Origin: Solidesulfovibrio sp.
GTDB taxonomy: Bacteria; Desulfobacterota; Desulfovibrionia; Desulfovibrionales; Desulfovibrionaceae
NCBI RefSeq assembly: GCF_029978005.1
Contig: NZ_JARKOZ010000083.1
Coordinates: 1 to 36,182, forward strand
DNA: 36,182 nucleotides
Direction: 5' to 3'
This document shows positions 2,314 through 9,502 of the stretch, in pieces (positions within the stretch are counted from its first letter, which is position 1; each line of letters starts with the position of its first letter). The position numbers and the translations under genes were made by a program. The notes below the pieces were generated by a model. The model worked only from the letters and a program-made list of their open reading frames with translations, was not told the origin of the DNA and made no database searches.

Positions 2314-2871
2314 TCAGGCCAGCCCGGTCTCGGCGGCCACGCCGGCCATGGCCGCGATGGCCACGGTCAAAAACTCGTCCAGGGGCAGCCCGGCCTTCTC
2401 GCACTCCAGGATGTTGGCCCGGCGGACGTTCGCGGCGAAGGCCTTGTCCTTCATCTTCTTCTTGATGCTCTTGGGGGCCATGCCTTCCATGCGGTCCGGC
2501 CGCACCAAGGCGGCGGCGCTGATGATGCCCGTGACGGATTCGGCGGCGCGCAGGGCGAAGTCGAAGGCGCTTTGGGGCGCGACGCCGGTGTGCTCGTCGT
2601 TGTGGGCGGCGATGGCGCAAAGCGCCTCCTCGGGCAGCGCCCCCTCGGGCAACGCCTCGCGCAGGGCGAGGCCGTGGCGGGCCGGGTCGGCGGCGGTGCG
2701 CGGATAGTCCAGGTCGTGGACCAGGCCGGTCAACCCCCACAGCTCGGGGTCGTGTCCCAAGCGCTCGGCCAGGGCCCGCATGACGGCCTCGGTCTGGCGG
2801 CCGTGGGCCACCAGGCCGGGGTTGGGGTTCTCGGCCAGGACCAGGGCCAGGGCGGATTGACGATCGATCAT
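2314..2871 (-). CDS. HD-domain (HDIG-like) hydrolase
   Basis: This 185-residue protein has the HD metal-dependent phosphohydrolase pattern. An early histidine sits in LVAHGRQTEAVMRALAERLG, the HD pair in WGLTGLVHDLDYPR, a later histidine in AIAAHNDEHTG, and an aspartate-containing helix near ESVTGIISAAALVRPD. HDIG-like proteins of this size hydrolyse nucleotides or related phosphate esters; the substrate is unknown here. The start ATG at 2871 follows an AAGGA ribosome site that overlaps the stop codon of the upstream small gene, so the two are translationally close. A lysine-rich stretch (SIKKKMKDKAF) is typical of this subfamily. Confidence 0.75.
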   Translation of the reverse strand: MIDRQSALALVLAENPNPGLVAHGRQTEAVMRALAERLGHDPELWGLTGLVHDLDYPRTAADPARHGLALREALPEGALPEEALCAIAAHNDEHTGVAPQSAFDFALRAAESVTGIISAAALVRPDRMEGMAPKSIKKKMKDKAFAANVRRANILECEKAGLPLDEFLTVAIAAMAGVAAETGLA

Positions 2872-2880
2872 GAGGCGTCC

Positions 2881-3129
2881 TTATTCGGCGGCGGGAGGAT
2901 TGAGTGCGTCGACGTCGGCCTGGATGTCCCGCAGCACGCGCGCGGCAAAGGCCACGGCCACGCGCTTGGCGTCGTCGAGGTTGGGAATCTTGTCCTTGAG
3001 GGAGCGCTTGCCGACCTGGATCTTCCAGCCCGGCGAGCCCATCTTTTCGTTTATGACCGTAACGAGAAGGGCTCGGCCGAGATTGATGTAATGCGTGCTG
3101 TCGTCGTGTCGCGTCCATTCGAGAGCCAT
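2881..3129 (-). CDS. Small conserved-type hypothetical protein, 82 aa
   Basis: The protein begins MALEWTRHDDSTHYINLG and is mostly polar, without signal peptide or membrane segment. Its lysine-rich middle (KMGSPGWKIQVGKRSLKDKI) and the helix NLDDAKRVAVAFAARVLRDIQ suggest a compact soluble domain. I do not recognise a family. It is the first gene of a three-gene minus-strand unit with the HD protein and the transporter, with 9-base gaps. An 84-base spacer separates it from the kinase gene upstream, enough for its own promoter. Codon use matches its neighbours. Confidence 0.7.
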   Translation of the reverse strand: MALEWTRHDDSTHYINLGRALLVTVINEKMGSPGWKIQVGKRSLKDKIPNLDDAKRVAVAFAARVLRDIQADVDALNPPAAE

Positions 3130-3213: not shown

Positions 3214-5325
3214 CTATTTGGGAAAACGCAGGGTAAAGACGGCCCCTTCGTCGTCGTTGGCGGCCGTCGCCTCGCCCCCGAGCTGGCGGGACAGGTTGGC
3301 CACAAGCTGCATGCCGAGCGTCGGCGTCTCGTCGATCCGGAAATCCTCTGGCAGGCCCGGCCCGTCGTCGCCGACCACGATGGTCACGGTCTGGTCCTGC
3401 TCCTCCAGGCGCAGGCGCAGGATGCCCGAGGGCCGTTCCTGGAAGGCGTGCTTGTAGGCGTTGGTCAGCAGCTCGTTGAGCACGAGGCCGGCCGGCACGG
3501 CCTTTTCGATGGGCACGTCCACCGGGGCGAGGCGGCAGTCGAAGGCCAGCTCCGGCGTCTTCCGGTCGTGGCCGAACAGGCGCGGCAACAGATCCCGGAT
3601 GTATTCGTCGAGGCGGATGCGCGAGAGGCTGGTGGAGCGGTAGAGTTCCTCATGGACCAGGGCCATGGAGGCGATGCGGTGCCGGCTTTCGCGAAAGCTC
3701 TCCAGGGCCGCCGGGTCGCGGACCTTCTCCTCCTGGAGGTAGAGCAGGCCGGAGATGATCTGCAGATTGTTCTTCACCCGGTGGTGGATTTCCTTGAGCA
3801 GGATCTCCTTTTCCGCCAGGGAGTCGCGCAGCTCTTTTTCGGCGCGCACCCTGGCCGTGACGTCCCTGTCCACCCCGCGATACCCCTTGAAGGCGCCGGT
3901 CTCGTCGTGCCAGGGCACGGCGCTCGTCAGGACGCAGCATTTCCTGCCGTCGCTGTTCACGCGCCACACGGTCAGGTCGCGAAGGGGCGACCGGGCGGCC
4001 TTGGCCTGGGCGAAGGCCGTCCGGAAGGCCTCCTCCTCGCCCGGGGCCAGGAAGTCGAAGGGCGTCCTGCCCAGAAGCGTGGCCGGGTCGTAGCCCAGGG
4101 TCCGGCTGACTTTCTGGCTCACATAGACGTAGCGGTCCTCCTCGTCGGTCTCCCAGATCCAGTCGGCCATGCTCATGGCGATGTGGGCCATGCGTTCCTG
4201 GCTCTGGCGCAGGGCGGACAGGGCCTGCTCCCGGGCGGCTTCGTGGGCGGCCAAGAGCTGCGCCATGGCGTCGATGGTCCGGGCCACCTTGCCGATGTCG
4301 GCTTCGCCGTGGGGCAGGCCCGTGCGGGCGGCAAGGTCGCCCCGGCCGATGCTGTCGGCGGTTTCGGCGATGCGGTCGAGCCGCCTGGCGATGGCCGCGC
4401 CGCCGAACAACCAGGCCACGAAAAAGGCCAGCAGGGCGGCGACCGCCAGGAAGAGCAGGTTGCCGACCAGGGCCTGGCGCGCCGGCCCCAGGACGTTGGC
4501 TTCGGGCAGCCCCACCACGAAATACATGTAGGGCGATCGGCCCGGGGCGAGGGACAGCTTCTCGAAGGCGTAGAAGCGCCGGCGGCCGTCGGAGCCGGTG
4601 AAACGCACCACGCCCTGGTCCTGCGGGCTGGCGGACATGGCCCGCCAGACCTCCTCCCGGATGGGCGCGCCCGTGGGGTTCGTGGGCGACTTGGGGCGGT
4701 AGTAGAGGCGCACGCCCCGATGGTCGGTGACGCCGAGGACCGCGCCCTCGGGCATGAGCAGCCGTTCGAAGCCTTCGTCGAGATTCGACAACCTGATGGA
4801 GGCGATGAGCAGACCGGCCACGCGTCCCGCGTCGTCCCGGAAGGGCAGGGAGAAGGGGAAGGCGGGATCGTAGCCCGTGCGGCTGAGGATGTACTCGCCG
4901 GCGCTGAAGCCTTCCGTGGCCATGGCCTCGACGAAGTGCTTGCGGTCGGCCAGGTTCACCTGGCCCGCGGGAAGGCCGGAGGCGACGACGTCTCCGTGGC
5001 CGTCCACGGCCACGATGTTGATGTAAATGGGATTGTCGTGCAGCAGGGAGGCGAACAGCGCATCGCAGGCGGCCACGTCCATGCGCCTGACCTCGGGCAT
5101 GGCGGCCAGGGTGGTCAGGAGCAGGCGCGTGCTTTCGGTGACGCGGATCTGGACCTGGGCCATGGCGGCGGCGGCGCGGTGGGCCTCCATGGTGGCCTCG
5201 GCCACGAGGTGGTCGCGGCGGGCGATACCGTCGTAGACCTGCAGGGCCAGGGCCGGCAGCACCGCCAGGAGCGTCATCAGCACGAGCCCCGCCCGAATGG
5301 AGAGCGTGAGGGGAAAGCGTTTCAC
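3214..5325 (-). CDS. Membrane sensor histidine kinase: Cache-HAMP-PAS-HisKA_2
   Basis: This 703-residue kinase has a membrane helix at about 11-30, then an extracytoplasmic region of about 250 residues with the look of a double Cache domain (for example NPIYINIVAVDGHGDVVASG). A second membrane helix lies at about 287-308, a HAMP-type linker at about 310-365, and a PAS domain at about 375-495. The kinase core is of the HisKA_2/HWE-related type: EIHHRVKNNLQII holds the phosphoacceptor His (514), and the ATP-binding domain has NELLTNAYKHAF and GDDGPGLP. Such kinases sense small molecules outside the cell and phosphorylate separate response regulators. No regulator is adjacent. It starts 34 bases after the YqjK-like gene and may be read from that operon. 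Confidence 0.9.
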   Translation of the reverse strand: MKRFPLTLSIRAGLVLMTLLAVLPALALQVYDGIARRDHLVAEATMEAHRAAAAMAQVQIRVTESTRLLLTTLAAMPEVRRMDVAACDALFASLLHDNPIYINIVAVDGHGDVVASGLPAGQVNLADRKHFVEAMATEGFSAGEYILSRTGYDPAFPFSLPFRDDAGRVAGLLIASIRLSNLDEGFERLLMPEGAVLGVTDHRGVRLYYRPKSPTNPTGAPIREEVWRAMSASPQDQGVVRFTGSDGRRRFYAFEKLSLAPGRSPYMYFVVGLPEANVLGPARQALVGNLLFLAVAALLAFFVAWLFGGAAIARRLDRIAETADSIGRGDLAARTGLPHGEADIGKVARTIDAMAQLLAAHEAAREQALSALRQSQERMAHIAMSMADWIWETDEEDRYVYVSQKVSRTLGYDPATLLGRTPFDFLAPGEEEAFRTAFAQAKAARSPLRDLTVWRVNSDGRKCCVLTSAVPWHDETGAFKGYRGVDRDVTARVRAEKELRDSLAEKEILLKEIHHRVKNNLQIISGLLYLQEEKVRDPAALESFRESRHRIASMALVHEELYRSTSLSRIRLDEYIRDLLPRLFGHDRKTPELAFDCRLAPVDVPIEKAVPAGLVLNELLTNAYKHAFQERPSGILRLRLEEQDQTVTIVVGDDGPGLPEDFRIDETPTLGMQLVANLSRQLGGEATAANDDEGAVFTLRFPK

Positions 5326-6269: not shown

Positions 6270-8075
6270 TTAACCATTTGCGGCTTCCCTGTCCATGGGG
6301 CCCGCGGGTGGGGCGGGGGACGCCTCGCCCGGCAGGATCGCCGGCAGGGTCAGGGTGAAGACGCTGCCTTGCCCGGGCGTGCTGGAAAGCCGCATCCGGC
6401 CGCCCATGCCGGCGGCCAGCAGGGCGCACAGGGTGAGCCCCAGGCCGGTGCCGCGAAAGGGCCGGGTGGTCGAGCCGTCGCCCTGGGCGAAGGGCTCGAA
6501 GATCCGGGCGTGTTTTTCCGGGGGGATGCCGATGCCGGTGTCGGTCACGGCAAAGACCAGCCGGCCGGCCTCGGCCGGGTCGCGCCCCGGGCCCACCGCC
6601 AGGCGCACCTCGCCTGCTCCGGTGAACTTCACGGCGTTGTCGAGAAGGTTGTCGAGGATCTGGCGCACCCGGGCCGGGTCGCCCACGGCGGTCGCCGGCG
6701 CGTCCGGAGCCGGGGAGAAGACCAGGGCCAGGCCTTTGGCGGCGGCCCGCTCGGCCTGGCCGGCCAGGGCCTGGCGGGCCAGCTCGCGGGGGTCGAAGGC
6801 CTCGCGGGAGAGCTTGAGCCGGCCGGATTGGATGCGGGAGACGTCGAGGATGTCGTTAAGGAGGGCCATGAGCCCCTCGCCGGCCTGCTCCAGGGCGGTG
6901 AGGAACTCCTCCTGGCGGGGGGAAAGCCCGGAGTCGCGCAGGAGGTCCACCATGCCGAGGATGGTGTTCATGGGCGTGCGGACCTCGTGGCTCATGAGCG
7001 ACAGGAAACGCAGCTGGGTCTGGCTGGCCGCCTCGGCCGCCTCCTTGGCCAGGACCAGGGCCTGCTCGATGGCCTTTCGGGCGGTGATGTCCACCGCCAC
7101 GGACAGCAGGCAGGTCTGGCCGAAGGCCTCCAGGGGGATGCCGGAATACAGGACCGTGCCGCGACGCCCTTGCTTGAAGCGGTAGTCGAGTTCGAGGTTC
7201 TGGATCAGGCCCTCCCTGTCCACGGTGTCGAAGATGCGTACGCGGTCGTCGGGGGCGATGGAGAAGCCGAGTTCCTCCGGCGTGCGGCCGATGATCTCGT
7301 GGCGGGAGAGGTCGATCCCGGCGAGGAAGGCTTCGTTGACCTCGAGGTAGCGGTTCTCCGGCAGGCTGGCGATGGCGATGGCGGCCGGGGTGAGGCGCAG
7401 GATCTTGGCCAGGCGGTCCCGGCTTTCGGCCAGCATCTGGCGGCTGGCCAGCTGGCGCGTGACGTCGCGGGCGTAGACGGCCAGCCGCCGGCCGCCGTCC
7501 GGTCCGGGCGGCAGGGGGGAAAGGATGTTGTCCAGGGCGCGGCCTTCGCGCACGTCGCTGAAGGCGACGGGGCGCCCCGTGTCCAAGGCCTGGCGGTAGC
7601 GCTCGCGCCGGGCTTCCACGATGGCCGGATCGGTCAGGGCGAGGATGTCGCGGCCGATGAAGTCGTCGAAGGCGCAGCCGAAGCGGGCGGCGGCGGTGCG
7701 GTTGGCCGAGACGACGCGGAAATCCTCGTCGAGGACCAGGATGGCGTCGCTCGTGGCTTCGAACACGGCTTCGAGCAGGTCGCGCTTGGCGGCGAGTTCG
7801 CGCTGGGCCTCCAGGCGGCGACGCGTCTCGGCCGCCACGCGCCGGGAACGCCGCCAAAGCACGGCCAGGGCCGCCGCCAGGGGCAGGCCGACGAGAAGGC
7901 CGGGAAGCGGGTGGCCGACGAATTCCTGCCAGCACTGGCCGGACAGGGAGGCCCTGTCGGCCGCGCCCGCAACGACCGGGACGAGAAGGGCGGCCAGGGT
8001 CAGGGCGAAGAAAAGGCCGACGGCCCGCGCGCCTTGGCGAGAGGCGGCGGGCGGCCGGCGCGGCGCGGCGGCTAC
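6270..8075 (-). CDS. Membrane PAS-PAS sensor histidine kinase (start codon unresolved)
   Basis: Reading from about 8075, two hydrophobic segments (near GLFFALTLAALLVPVVAGAA and GLLVGLPLAAALAVLW) precede two PAS domains (around LLEAVFEATSDAILVLDEDF and ILRLTPAAIAIASLPENRYL). A HisKA domain with the phosphoacceptor in SLMSHEVRTPMNTILG follows, then an ATPase domain with ILDNLLDNAVKF, DTGIGIP and GTGLGL. There is no receiver domain. The open frame continues upstream through the Nif11 gene, where its residues are arginine/proline-rich and not protein-like. No ATG, GTG or TTG occurs in frame between the Nif11 stop and the first hydrophobic segment. The nearest are a GTG at 8172-8174 and an ATG at 8232-8234, inside the Nif11 gene and without good ribosome sites. 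The true start is therefore open. Cotranscription with the Nif11 gene is likely. Confidence 0.85.
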   Translation of the reverse strand, partial: VAAAPRRPPAASRQGARAVGLFFALTLAALLVPVVAGAADRASLSGQCWQEFVGHPLPGLLVGLPLAAALAVLWRRSRRVAAETRRRLEAQRELAAKRDLLEAVFEATSDAILVLDEDFRVVSANRTAAARFGCAFDDFIGRDILALTDPAIVEARRERYRQALDTGRPVAFSDVREGRALDNILSPLPPGPDGGRRLAVYARDVTRQLASRQMLAESRDRLAKILRLTPAAIAIASLPENRYLEVNEAFLAGIDLSRHEIIGRTPEELGFSIAPDDRVRIFDTVDREGLIQNLELDYRFKQGRRGTVLYSGIPLEAFGQTCLLSVAVDITARKAIEQALVLAKEAAEAASQTQLRFLSLMSHEVRTPMNTILGMVDLLRDSGLSPRQEEFLTALEQAGEGLMALLNDILDVSRIQSGRLKLSREAFDPRELARQALAGQAERAAAKGLALVFSPAPDAPATAVGDPARVRQILDNLLDNAVKFTGAGEVRLAVGPGRDPAEAGRLVFAVTDTGIGIPPEKHARIFEPFAQGDGSTTRPFRGTGLGLTLCALLAAGMGGRMRLSSTPGQGSVFTLTLPAILPGEASPAPPAGPMDREAANG

Positions 8076-8320
8076 ATGAAGGCGTAGGATCCGTGGCCGT
8101 GGTTCTGGCGGCGCACCCGTTCGATCACCGCCGTACGGTCGTCGGAGACGTCTCCGCCGGGGCTGGTGGCGCACACGAGCTCGGCCGGGCTGAACCGGTA
8201 GCCCTCGGTGATGACGAAGCGGCGGCGCTCCCATTTGTTGCGGCACTCTCCAAGGGCCCAGCGGAAAGCCTGATCCTCGCGGAGCCGGTTGACGAATTCC
8301 ATGGCGCTTTGCAGAGACAT
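8072..8320 (-). CDS. Nif11-domain small protein
   Basis: The 82-residue product starts MSLQSAMEFVNRLREDQAFR and continues to GYRFSPAEL. This matches the Nif11 pattern: a helix with A..F...L..D...R, then G..F...EL. Nif11 domains occur as small proteins near nitrogen-fixation genes and as leader regions of some modified peptides. A GG pair at residues 55-56 follows the domain, ahead of a 26-residue tail with HGHG. The ATG at 8318-8320 is preceded by GGGAGG at 8328-8333 with good spacing. An upstream ATG at 8428 would add a hydrophobic, Cys-containing stretch and is less likely. Expression appears to come from the sigma-54 promoter at 8353-8368. Confidence 0.75.
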   Translation of the reverse strand: MSLQSAMEFVNRLREDQAFRWALGECRNKWERRRFVITEGYRFSPAELVCATSPGGDVSDDRTAVIERVRRQNHGHGSYAFM

Positions 8321-8352
8321 GACGCTTCCTCCCAAGAAGTACTTCTTGTGAA

Positions 8353-8368
8353 AGCAAAAATCATGCCA
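8353..8368 (-). promoter_or_regulatory. Sigma-54 (-24/-12) promoter for the Nif11-kinase unit
   Basis: The minus strand reads TGGCATGATTTTTGCT. It matches the consensus TGGCACG-N4-TTGCW with one change and has GG and GC exactly ten bases apart. Transcription would start near 8342, leaving a leader of about 22 bases that holds the GGGAGG site of the Nif11 gene. A 16-base perfect palindrome, CAAGAAGTACTTCTTG (8333-8348), spans the predicted start point. Sigma-54 promoters need an enhancer-bound activator; candidate palindromes lie upstream at 8464-8480 and 8432-8449. Confidence 0.7.
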
Positions 8369-8431
8369 TGCGCAACAAGACGTGGCCGAGACTAGAAACA
8401 CAGGAAATACGGCGTATTGCCAAGACATGGC

Positions 8432-8521: not shown

Positions 8522-8851
8522 TCACTGGGGGTAGTTCGTGTTGCAGTACTTGACGCACCAGTTGTAGGCCGTCAGCACGGTGGAGCCGCAGCCGATGAAC
8601 TCGCTTGGCACGTACTGACGGTTGTACACGTTCTCGCAGCCCCGGGCGCAGTCGGCCCTGGAGGCGTGCTCGACCGAGAGCACGTCCGAATCGTATTCGT
8701 TGCACAGCTCGATGGTGTCGCAGGAGACCTTGCGGCCGATATTGGTATAGCAGAATCCCCGGAATTCCGAATCCGTGAGGGGCCTGCTCGCGGCGCAGCC
8801 GGCAAGGCCGGCGAGCAGGACGACAAGGATCAGCAACGACAGCGGCTTCAT
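8522..8851 (-). CDS. Cysteine-rich lipoprotein, 109 aa
   Basis: The N-terminus is a lipoprotein signal, MKPLSLLILVVLLAGLAGCA, with the lipobox LAGC giving a lipidated Cys. The mature part has eight further cysteines (in GFCYT, VSCDT, ELCNE, ADCAR, RGCEN, IGCGS, NWCVK, KYCNT), spaced as if forming several disulfides, and many Tyr/Asn residues. There are no CXXCH haem motifs. I do not recognise the family. It is likely membrane-anchored and faces the periplasm or cell surface. It is transcribed away from the two palindromes at 8992-9053, which could also affect its expression. Confidence 0.75.
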   Translation of the reverse strand: MKPLSLLILVVLLAGLAGCAASRPLTDSEFRGFCYTNIGRKVSCDTIELCNEYDSDVLSVEHASRADCARGCENVYNRQYVPSEFIGCGSTVLTAYNWCVKYCNTNYPQ

Positions 8852-8991: not shown

Positions 8992-9009
8992 GGTACAAGG
9001 GCTTGTACC
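8992..9009. promoter_or_regulatory. Palindromic site 1, GGTACAAG-GG-CTTGTACC
   Basis: This is a perfect 8+8 inverted repeat with a two-base centre. It shares the half-site GGTACA(A/G)G with the palindrome at 9032-9053. The two centres are 42 bases apart, four helical turns, so two dimers would bind the same face. The centre lies about 175 bases upstream of the predicted sigma-54 start at 9176, a typical activator position. Confidence 0.65.
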
Positions 9010-9031
9010 ATGCTCCGGCCCCTTGGCTCGT

Positions 9032-9053
9032 CCGGTACAGGATCCTGTACCGG
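9032..9053. promoter_or_regulatory. Palindromic site 2, core GGTACAGGATCCTGTACC
   Basis: A perfect 22-base palindrome (the core plus CC and GG outside) is centred about 133 bases upstream of the predicted sigma-54 start. It has the same half-site as site 1. The regulator cannot be named from the motif. Between this site and the promoter lies a markedly A/T-rich stretch (9083-9133) that could bend or bind IHF. Confidence 0.65.
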
Positions 9054-9149
9054 AAATCCGGCCCCGAGCCCGATAAAGGAGCAAGTTTTATTCTTATATC
9101 ATATTGAAAACAAATGATAAAATAAGAGTTTTCCTTGACCTGCCCCGTT

Positions 9150-9165
9150 TGGCCCGCTCCTTGCT
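9150..9165 (+). promoter_or_regulatory. Sigma-54 (-24/-12) promoter on the plus strand
   Basis: The sequence TGGCCCGCTCCTTGCT matches TGGCACG-N4-TTGCW with a single change, and GG and GC are ten bases apart. The predicted start is near 9176. No plus-strand protein gene follows before 12046; glnS lies on the opposite strand. The only element downstream is the hairpin at 9203-9243. Confidence 0.7.
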
Positions 9166-9175
9166 ATAGAAGAAA

Positions 9176-9250
9176 CATCCTTCCTCCAAGAACTCAAATT
9201 TAGGAAAAGGACTCCAGGGATGGCGACCCAGGAGTCCTTTTCCGCTTTTG
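9176..9250 (+). ncRNA. Candidate sigma-54-dependent small RNA
   Basis: Between the predicted sigma-54 start and the end of the hairpin terminator lie about 70 bases with no credible protein gene. An ATG sits in the terminator loop at 9220, but the frame after it is Arg-rich and unlike its neighbours. The transcript would have a short single-stranded A/C-rich 5' part and a long 3' hairpin. The loop contains CAGGGATG, close to the CAGGATG repeat of CsrB-type RNAs, but a single copy is weak evidence. This is inference from promoter plus terminator. Confidence 0.45.
9203..9243 (+). terminator. Intrinsic terminator hairpin
   Basis: GGAAAAGGACTCC (9203-9215) and GGAGTCCTTTTCC (9231-9243) form a perfect 13-base-pair stem around a 15-base loop. 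On the plus strand the distal arm has a T4 run and a second T4 run follows shortly after. The stem is nearly symmetrical, so it could also work for minus-strand transcription coming from glnS. Confidence 0.7.
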
Positions 9251-9465: not shown

Positions 9466-9502
9466 ACGCGCCCGCAAGGAGGCTTTCTCCCTGCGGGCGC
9501 GT
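9466..9502 (-). terminator. Hairpin terminator behind glnS
   Basis: ACGCGCCCGCA and TGCGGGCGCGT form a perfect 11-base-pair stem 31 bases after the glnS stop. In the glnS direction it is followed by CGCTTTGGGG, so the T-run is weak, but the stem is strong. Confidence 0.6.

Follow-up and report, generated by a model that had tools for sequence, protein, structure and literature searches.

The window analysed here is the whole 36,182-nucleotide contig NZ_JARKOZ010000083.1 of Solidesulfovibrio sp. (assembly GCF_029978005.1), part of a 4.8-Mb draft genome that we call G000. Between a small ORF on the minus strand (8522-8851) and glnS, which lies downstream on the opposite strand, we found two palindromes, an A/T-rich stretch, a -24/-12 promoter and a hairpin. 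The preliminary description had placed these elements at the same positions, and direct reading of the sequence confirms it. The ORF at 8522-8851 has no Pfam or NCBIfam match and by eye appears cysteine-rich and lipoprotein-like; a similar-looking ORF lies downstream of a second copy of the unit on contig C40, and another seems to hold a GTACA palindrome (C182:4085). The minus-strand ORF at 8072-8428 contains a Nif11 domain (PF07862, E 3.4e-7).

Control region and hairpin of the locus

The distal palindrome GGTACAAGGGCTTGTACC occupies 8992-9009 and has two 8-bp arms around a 2-bp centre (GGTACAAG-GG-CTTGTACC), whereas the proximal one, CCGGTACAGGATCCTGTACCGG, is a perfect 22-mer at 9032-9053. 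They lie 42 bp apart from centre to centre and have the features of paired enhancer sites (UAS). This motif is not common: GTACA-N6-TGTAC occurs at only four places in the draft genome, two of which are these, against 13 for a reversed-pattern control, and the only two others look like coding sequence by eye. The A/T-rich spacer at about 9083-9133 may contain an IHF bending site, although the match here is weak (2 mismatches). It is followed on the plus strand by the sigma-54 promoter TGGCCCG-N4-TTGCT at 9150-9165. If transcription starts 12 bases after the promoter's C at 9164, the RNA begins at C9176, where cross-species conservation resumes after the promoter.

The inferred RNA (9176-9247, plus strand) carries a pyrimidine-rich 5' end predicted to be single-stranded, CAUCCUUCCUCC (9176-9187), and a terminator hairpin at 9203-9243. 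The hairpin consists of 13 bp plus an inner 3-bp stem and is significantly stable (-28.4 kcal/mol, z = -3.4, with 0 of 200 shuffles as stable). An ATG lies in its loop (ATGGCGACC), which raises the possibility of a short peptide or of a leader of a downstream gene. We consider this very unlikely, although without a formal coding test, because the hairpin evolves by compensatory changes, the ATG is missing in copies of the type-C stem/loop (GGGTGGCTCCC), copies lie in different surroundings by eye, and the downstream glnS is on the opposite strand. The GGGAUGG of the loop, a potential CsrA site, is likewise missing in type-C copies, and a 13-base match between the hairpin and the glnS 3' end is, by eye, not kept in the hairpins of relatives. 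Because glnS converges on the hairpin, the latter could also be only a terminator of the glnS region, with the palindromes and promoter being coincidental. This is most improbable, since the module recurs at many loci with similar geometry and a separate GC-rich inverted repeat lies nearer the glnS end (about 9468-9501, by eye).

A multi-copy RNA family in Solidesulfovibrio and related genera

A DNA search of 40 relatives found the unit in all 14 genomes examined of the genus and, in several of them, a second copy with a different stem. We aligned 24 copies over the RNA; these were collected by DNA similarity but located by ATCCTTCCTC, making this 10-mer invariant by construction, and copies found later vary in it (for example ACCTTCCTC). 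RNAalifold predicts a single hairpin in which 9 of 15 consensus pairs have compensatory changes, although part of this reflects two clades and the independent events are fewer. A covariance model built from these 24 copies (R1) recovered 49 full-length copies with E at most 7.4e-4 in the 14 genomes, 2-5 in each, and one further full-length match with only E 0.07 in the genome G013. The copy studied here, itself part of the model, matched at 9176-9247 with E 5.3e-16. G000 holds three copies: this one, C40:53222-53291 and C217:8766-8835. Three stem/loop types exist in total. No small-RNA family was detected with Rfam, either in the window (0 matches at gathering score) or in eight relative loci (three matches, all riboswitches).

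The geometry of the control region is also recurrent. We examined 69 copies, comprising 45 of the 49 genus copies and 24 from other genera that had been found with the UAS pattern and are therefore biased. Taking the best GTACA-N6-TGTAC-like site and the best second site within 36-58 bp of it, the spacing is 40-42 bp in 46 copies and 52 bp in 17, corresponding to four or five helical turns; second sites are often imperfect. The centre of the proximal site lies 105-108 bp before the -24 GG in 53 of the 69. An IHF-like site with at most one mismatch is present in 22 of 69 copies against 14% of simple shuffles, a modest excess; IHF has been reported as required at D. vulgaris sigma-54-dependent operons (PMC3897727). 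In a second alignment of 24 copies from seven genus groups, TGGC..G and TGC of the promoter are invariant, although these copies had been cut out by their promoters.

Intriguingly, a pattern combining the proximal site, 78-108 bp and a sigma-54 promoter, written after seeing the copies, occurs at 30 places in the 14 genus genomes and nowhere in the reversed control. Of these, 29 are among the 49 RNA genes, and the last is a copy cut off by a contig end that shows the expected 5' tail. At this stringency, the enhancer motif thus serves only the RNA family in the genus.

The same pattern hit 38 of 288 genomes of the family (14 from the genus and 24 others), while the reversed control hit 3; one of three places in the genome G204 looks like coding sequence. 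By eye, the 24 non-genus loci show a short transcript with a pyrimidine-rich 5' end, often CUUCYUYC...UUUUGC, followed in nearly all by an evident hairpin terminator (the locus L126 is the least clear). Outside the genus, R1 matched 18 further genomes of 297 at E at most 0.01, of which by eye 7 are real copies (genus groups g25, g26 and g34) and 11 look like chance terminators. A second model including the promoter (R2) matched 246 of 288 genomes at E at most 0.01 and, by hand count, 114 at 1e-10 or better in 18 of 44 genus groups. Many of the weak hits may be ordinary promoters: in 800 kb of the 1.41 Mb of G137, a genome of group g24, R2 gave only two weak matches (E 0.02 and 0.57), the better of which was promoter plus T-run only. 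We therefore rely on the groups inspected by eye, in which copies were seen in g1, g5, g8, g25, g26, g27, g34, g41, g47 and g58, with equivalent units in nine genera beyond Solidesulfovibrio. In a set of 20 regions, filtering showed the RNA in 14. Tandem copies occur in several groups, and two or three copies lie within about 1 kb of each other at G159:C3, G162:C1, G171:C1, G091:C1 and G059:C77, suggesting local duplication.

Taken together, compensatory hairpin changes, recurrent geometry, multi-copy conservation and a dedicated enhancer-promoter pattern strongly support the preliminary description, which had proposed a ~70-base small RNA switched on from a sigma-54 promoter by an unknown enhancer-binding protein (EBP). 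The lack of conservation in close relatives that would have spoken against it was not observed. In the absence of RNA data, we conclude that the locus is very probably a sigma-54-dependent small-RNA gene. What was not apparent from the single locus is that the RNA has two siblings in this genome, that the family spans many genera, and that its 5' end matches porin ribosome-binding sites.

Complementarity to porin ribosome-binding sites

The 5' end CAUCCUUCCUCC is the reverse complement of GGAGGAAGGAUG, a Shine-Dalgarno sequence with a start codon. Searching three genus genomes (G003, G004 and G006) for GGAGGAAGG-N0-8-ATG gave 53 rows against 7 for the reversed control, although the rows include duplicates and RNA genes read backwards. 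Among them were clusters of tandem genes that proved to be large outer-membrane porins: five in a row and two more in G004, and two each in G003 and G006. The two porins tested belong to NF033939 (DESULF_POR1). We then used the porin of G000 as query in 16 genomes and read out the starts, leaving aside two start-less fragments of G000. In five genus genomes, 23 of 53 porin homologues carry GAGGAAGG within 22 nt of the start (G000 4 of 13, G003 3 of 10, G004 8 of 14, G006 4 of 8 and G010 4 of 8), and in g25 it is 6 of 11. The other 30 genus homologues lack it, one of them (G003_C20) only because its upstream sequence is cut short at 11 bases, and the more distant paralogues tend to lack it. In G004, 6 of 14 porins are among 20 distinct sites, giving a hypergeometric p of about 1.5e-11 with an assumed 4200 genes; for G000 the value is 4.5e-5 with an assumed 4300.

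The seed is partly a generic anti-Shine-Dalgarno, with CCUUCCUC as its core, and the RNA could be a general regulator of this kind or mainly control other genes such as respiratory proteins. Indeed, GAGGAAGG-N0-8-ATG occurs at 61 distinct places in G000 (reversed control 12), of which 4 are porin starts and 3 are the RNA genes themselves read backwards. Other genes carry the seed complement just before the start in two or three genus genomes and are possible further targets: an outer-membrane barrel protein (loci L215, L235 and L243, a weak PF13505 match below its cut-off), a membrane cytochrome-like protein (L232, L233) and a ribonucleotide-reductase-like protein (L201, L225), the last two identified by eye. 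We nevertheless regard this reading as unlikely, because porins are over-represented and because in other genera the complementarity extends beyond the Shine-Dalgarno into GCAAAA/UUUUGC and changes with it.

Of special interest is that where the 5' end of the RNA differs between genera, the porin ribosome-binding site differs in step. The RNA and porin sequences are CAUCUUCCUUUUUUUGC and GCAAAAAAAGGAAGA in G112, CCUUCUUUCUUUUGC and GCAAAAGAAAGAAGG in G181, and AUUCUUUUGCUGA and TCAGCAAAAGAA in G182, with 15-nt perfect runs in G112 and G181. G098 has the same RNA as G181 but for UUUUAC, and its porin GTAAAAGAAGGAAGG shows GTAAAA where its relatives have GCAAAA opposite UUUUGC. In 11 genomes, none of 200,000 permutations reached the observed total, although for the two groups with many porins (g1 and g25) we had picked a porin with the site. 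We subsequently examined 18 porins from 17 more RNA-bearing genomes, and all had an 8-16 nt perfect run to their own RNA, including in G289 the 15-mer TGCAAAAAGAAGAAG, which is unlike that of its genus-mates. Three comparison genomes in which the UAS pattern had found nothing (11 porins read) later proved to have R2 hits and are not clean negatives.

With 26 genomes together, each represented by one RNA and one porin, 0 of 100,000 free permutations reached the observed energy or run length (p of 1e-5). Because related sequences are not independent, this overstates significance: permuting only within genera gives p = 0.05 for energy and 0.11 for run length, and in g5 several RNAs match a relative's porin better than their own (G340: 8 nt own, up to 17 elsewhere). 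The matching is thus established between lineages and not species by species. Own runs are 12 nt or longer in 13 of the 26 genomes but only 8-10 nt in 8, and many are A/U-rich. Compared with about 2,500-3,070 windows of neighbouring DNA in 18 genomes, runs as long as the porin's occur in 0-21 windows. In the g24 genome G042, the porin ribosome-binding site GCAAAAGAAAGGAAGGAT (locus L351) predicts an RNA with a 5' tail near AUCCUUCCUUUCUUUUGC, and an R2 hit exists in that genome (E 6.2e-7).

Proposed regulation and related systems

These indications suggest that an EBP binds the two palindromes, four helical turns apart, and contacts the promoter about 106 bp downstream by DNA looping, possibly helped by IHF, thereby starting a roughly 72-nt RNA at 9176. 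The 5' tail would pair with the Shine-Dalgarno region of the mRNAs of outer-membrane homotrimeric porins (GGAGGAAGG just before AUG) and probably block their translation, with several sibling copies acting additively under the same enhancer signal. We hold this explanation with good confidence, although transcription, repression and additivity are inferred from sequence alone. It is also conceivable that pairing activates porin synthesis, or that porin mRNAs act as sponges titrating the RNA, as multi-copy RNAs and multi-copy porins are compatible with titration and the direction of regulation cannot be read from sequence. However, pairing covers the Shine-Dalgarno itself just before the start codon, which normally blocks initiation, making these alternatives improbable. 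We could not name the activator from the neighbourhoods of the RNA genes: an EBP signature lay about 4-7 kb from a copy in five neighbourhoods (L090 and L107, which are close relatives, L159, L401 and L403) and was not seen in the others examined, and none of the 51 EBP hits of the genome is on the three contigs with copies.

The proposed role resembles that of the sigma-E-dependent sRNAs RybB, MicA and VrrA. VrrA represses ompA translation by pairing with the 5' region and needs sigma-E (PMC2628432), and RybB and MicA appear to act similarly on porin or OMP mRNAs. Here, in contrast, the promoter is sigma-54 with distant enhancer sites, although sigma-E motifs were not scanned for separately. 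NcS25 of Burkholderia cenocepacia is an sRNA conserved across genera that pairs with the start region of a porin mRNA, and no sigma-54-like motif is reported upstream of it (PMC10117139). The Qrr sRNAs of Vibrio also seem to be sibling sigma-54-driven RNAs under one motif, but LuxO appears to recognize TTGCA-N3-TGCAA rather than GTACA-N6-TGTAC, and Qrr targets are probably quorum-sensing mRNAs. GlmY/GlmZ, CrcZ and NrsZ likewise seem to lie behind sigma-54 promoters, probably with different regulators, lengths and targets.

In Desulfovibrio vulgaris Hildenborough, four predicted sigma-54-dependent ncRNAs are listed as targets of the EBPs DVU0653, DVU0679, DVU1419 and DVU2359 (PMC4641369, PMC3333781), and part of the present family may already be listed there; R2 hits exist in many unnamed genus groups, one of which may hold D. 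vulgaris. The ncRNA Dv_sRNA2 (DVU0679) is expressed and of unknown function, and porins are not mentioned in the main text of that study (PMC3333781). In a partial literature search that left out most subscription journals and bioRxiv preprints, we found no report of a porin-targeting sRNA in these bacteria or of a sigma-54-driven porin sRNA (PMC4641369, PMC3333781, PMC11124144, PMC10117139). Porin-targeting sRNAs and sigma-54-driven sRNAs are each known; their combination, with a dedicated enhancer motif, sibling copies and seed-target co-variation between genera, was not found in print in this search. It suggests that porin repression by sRNAs, best known with sigma-E, can be wired to sigma-54, and the enhancer motif offers a direct handle on the sensor protein.

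The inducing signal may be envelope stress, a guess based on analogy with sigma-E systems and on the DVU1419 regulon, which is labelled envelope stress response and includes an ncRNA (PMC4641369). It is about as likely as not that, across Desulfovibrionaceae and possibly further in Desulfobacterota, control of porins has been handed to this RNA family and one dedicated activator, forming a counterpart of the RybB/MicA envelope response that runs without sigma-E. In this view, the EBP itself would be the envelope or porin sensor, and seed and porin ribosome-binding sites would have co-evolved since the family's ancestor. Of one set of 24 stretches, 20 are from Desulfovibrionaceae and 3 (Rubrivivax and two Phycisphaerae) look like chance. 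The remaining one, from a single Desulfobulbaceae MAG (L177, CALZIH010000115.1, minus strand, pattern start at 4301 of the reversed locus), shows a GTAAAAAATATTGTAC site, a sigma-54 promoter, a pyrimidine-rich 5' tail (GATCTTCATCTCTTCTCTCC) and a strong terminator hairpin, suggesting that the module may extend to Desulfobulbaceae.
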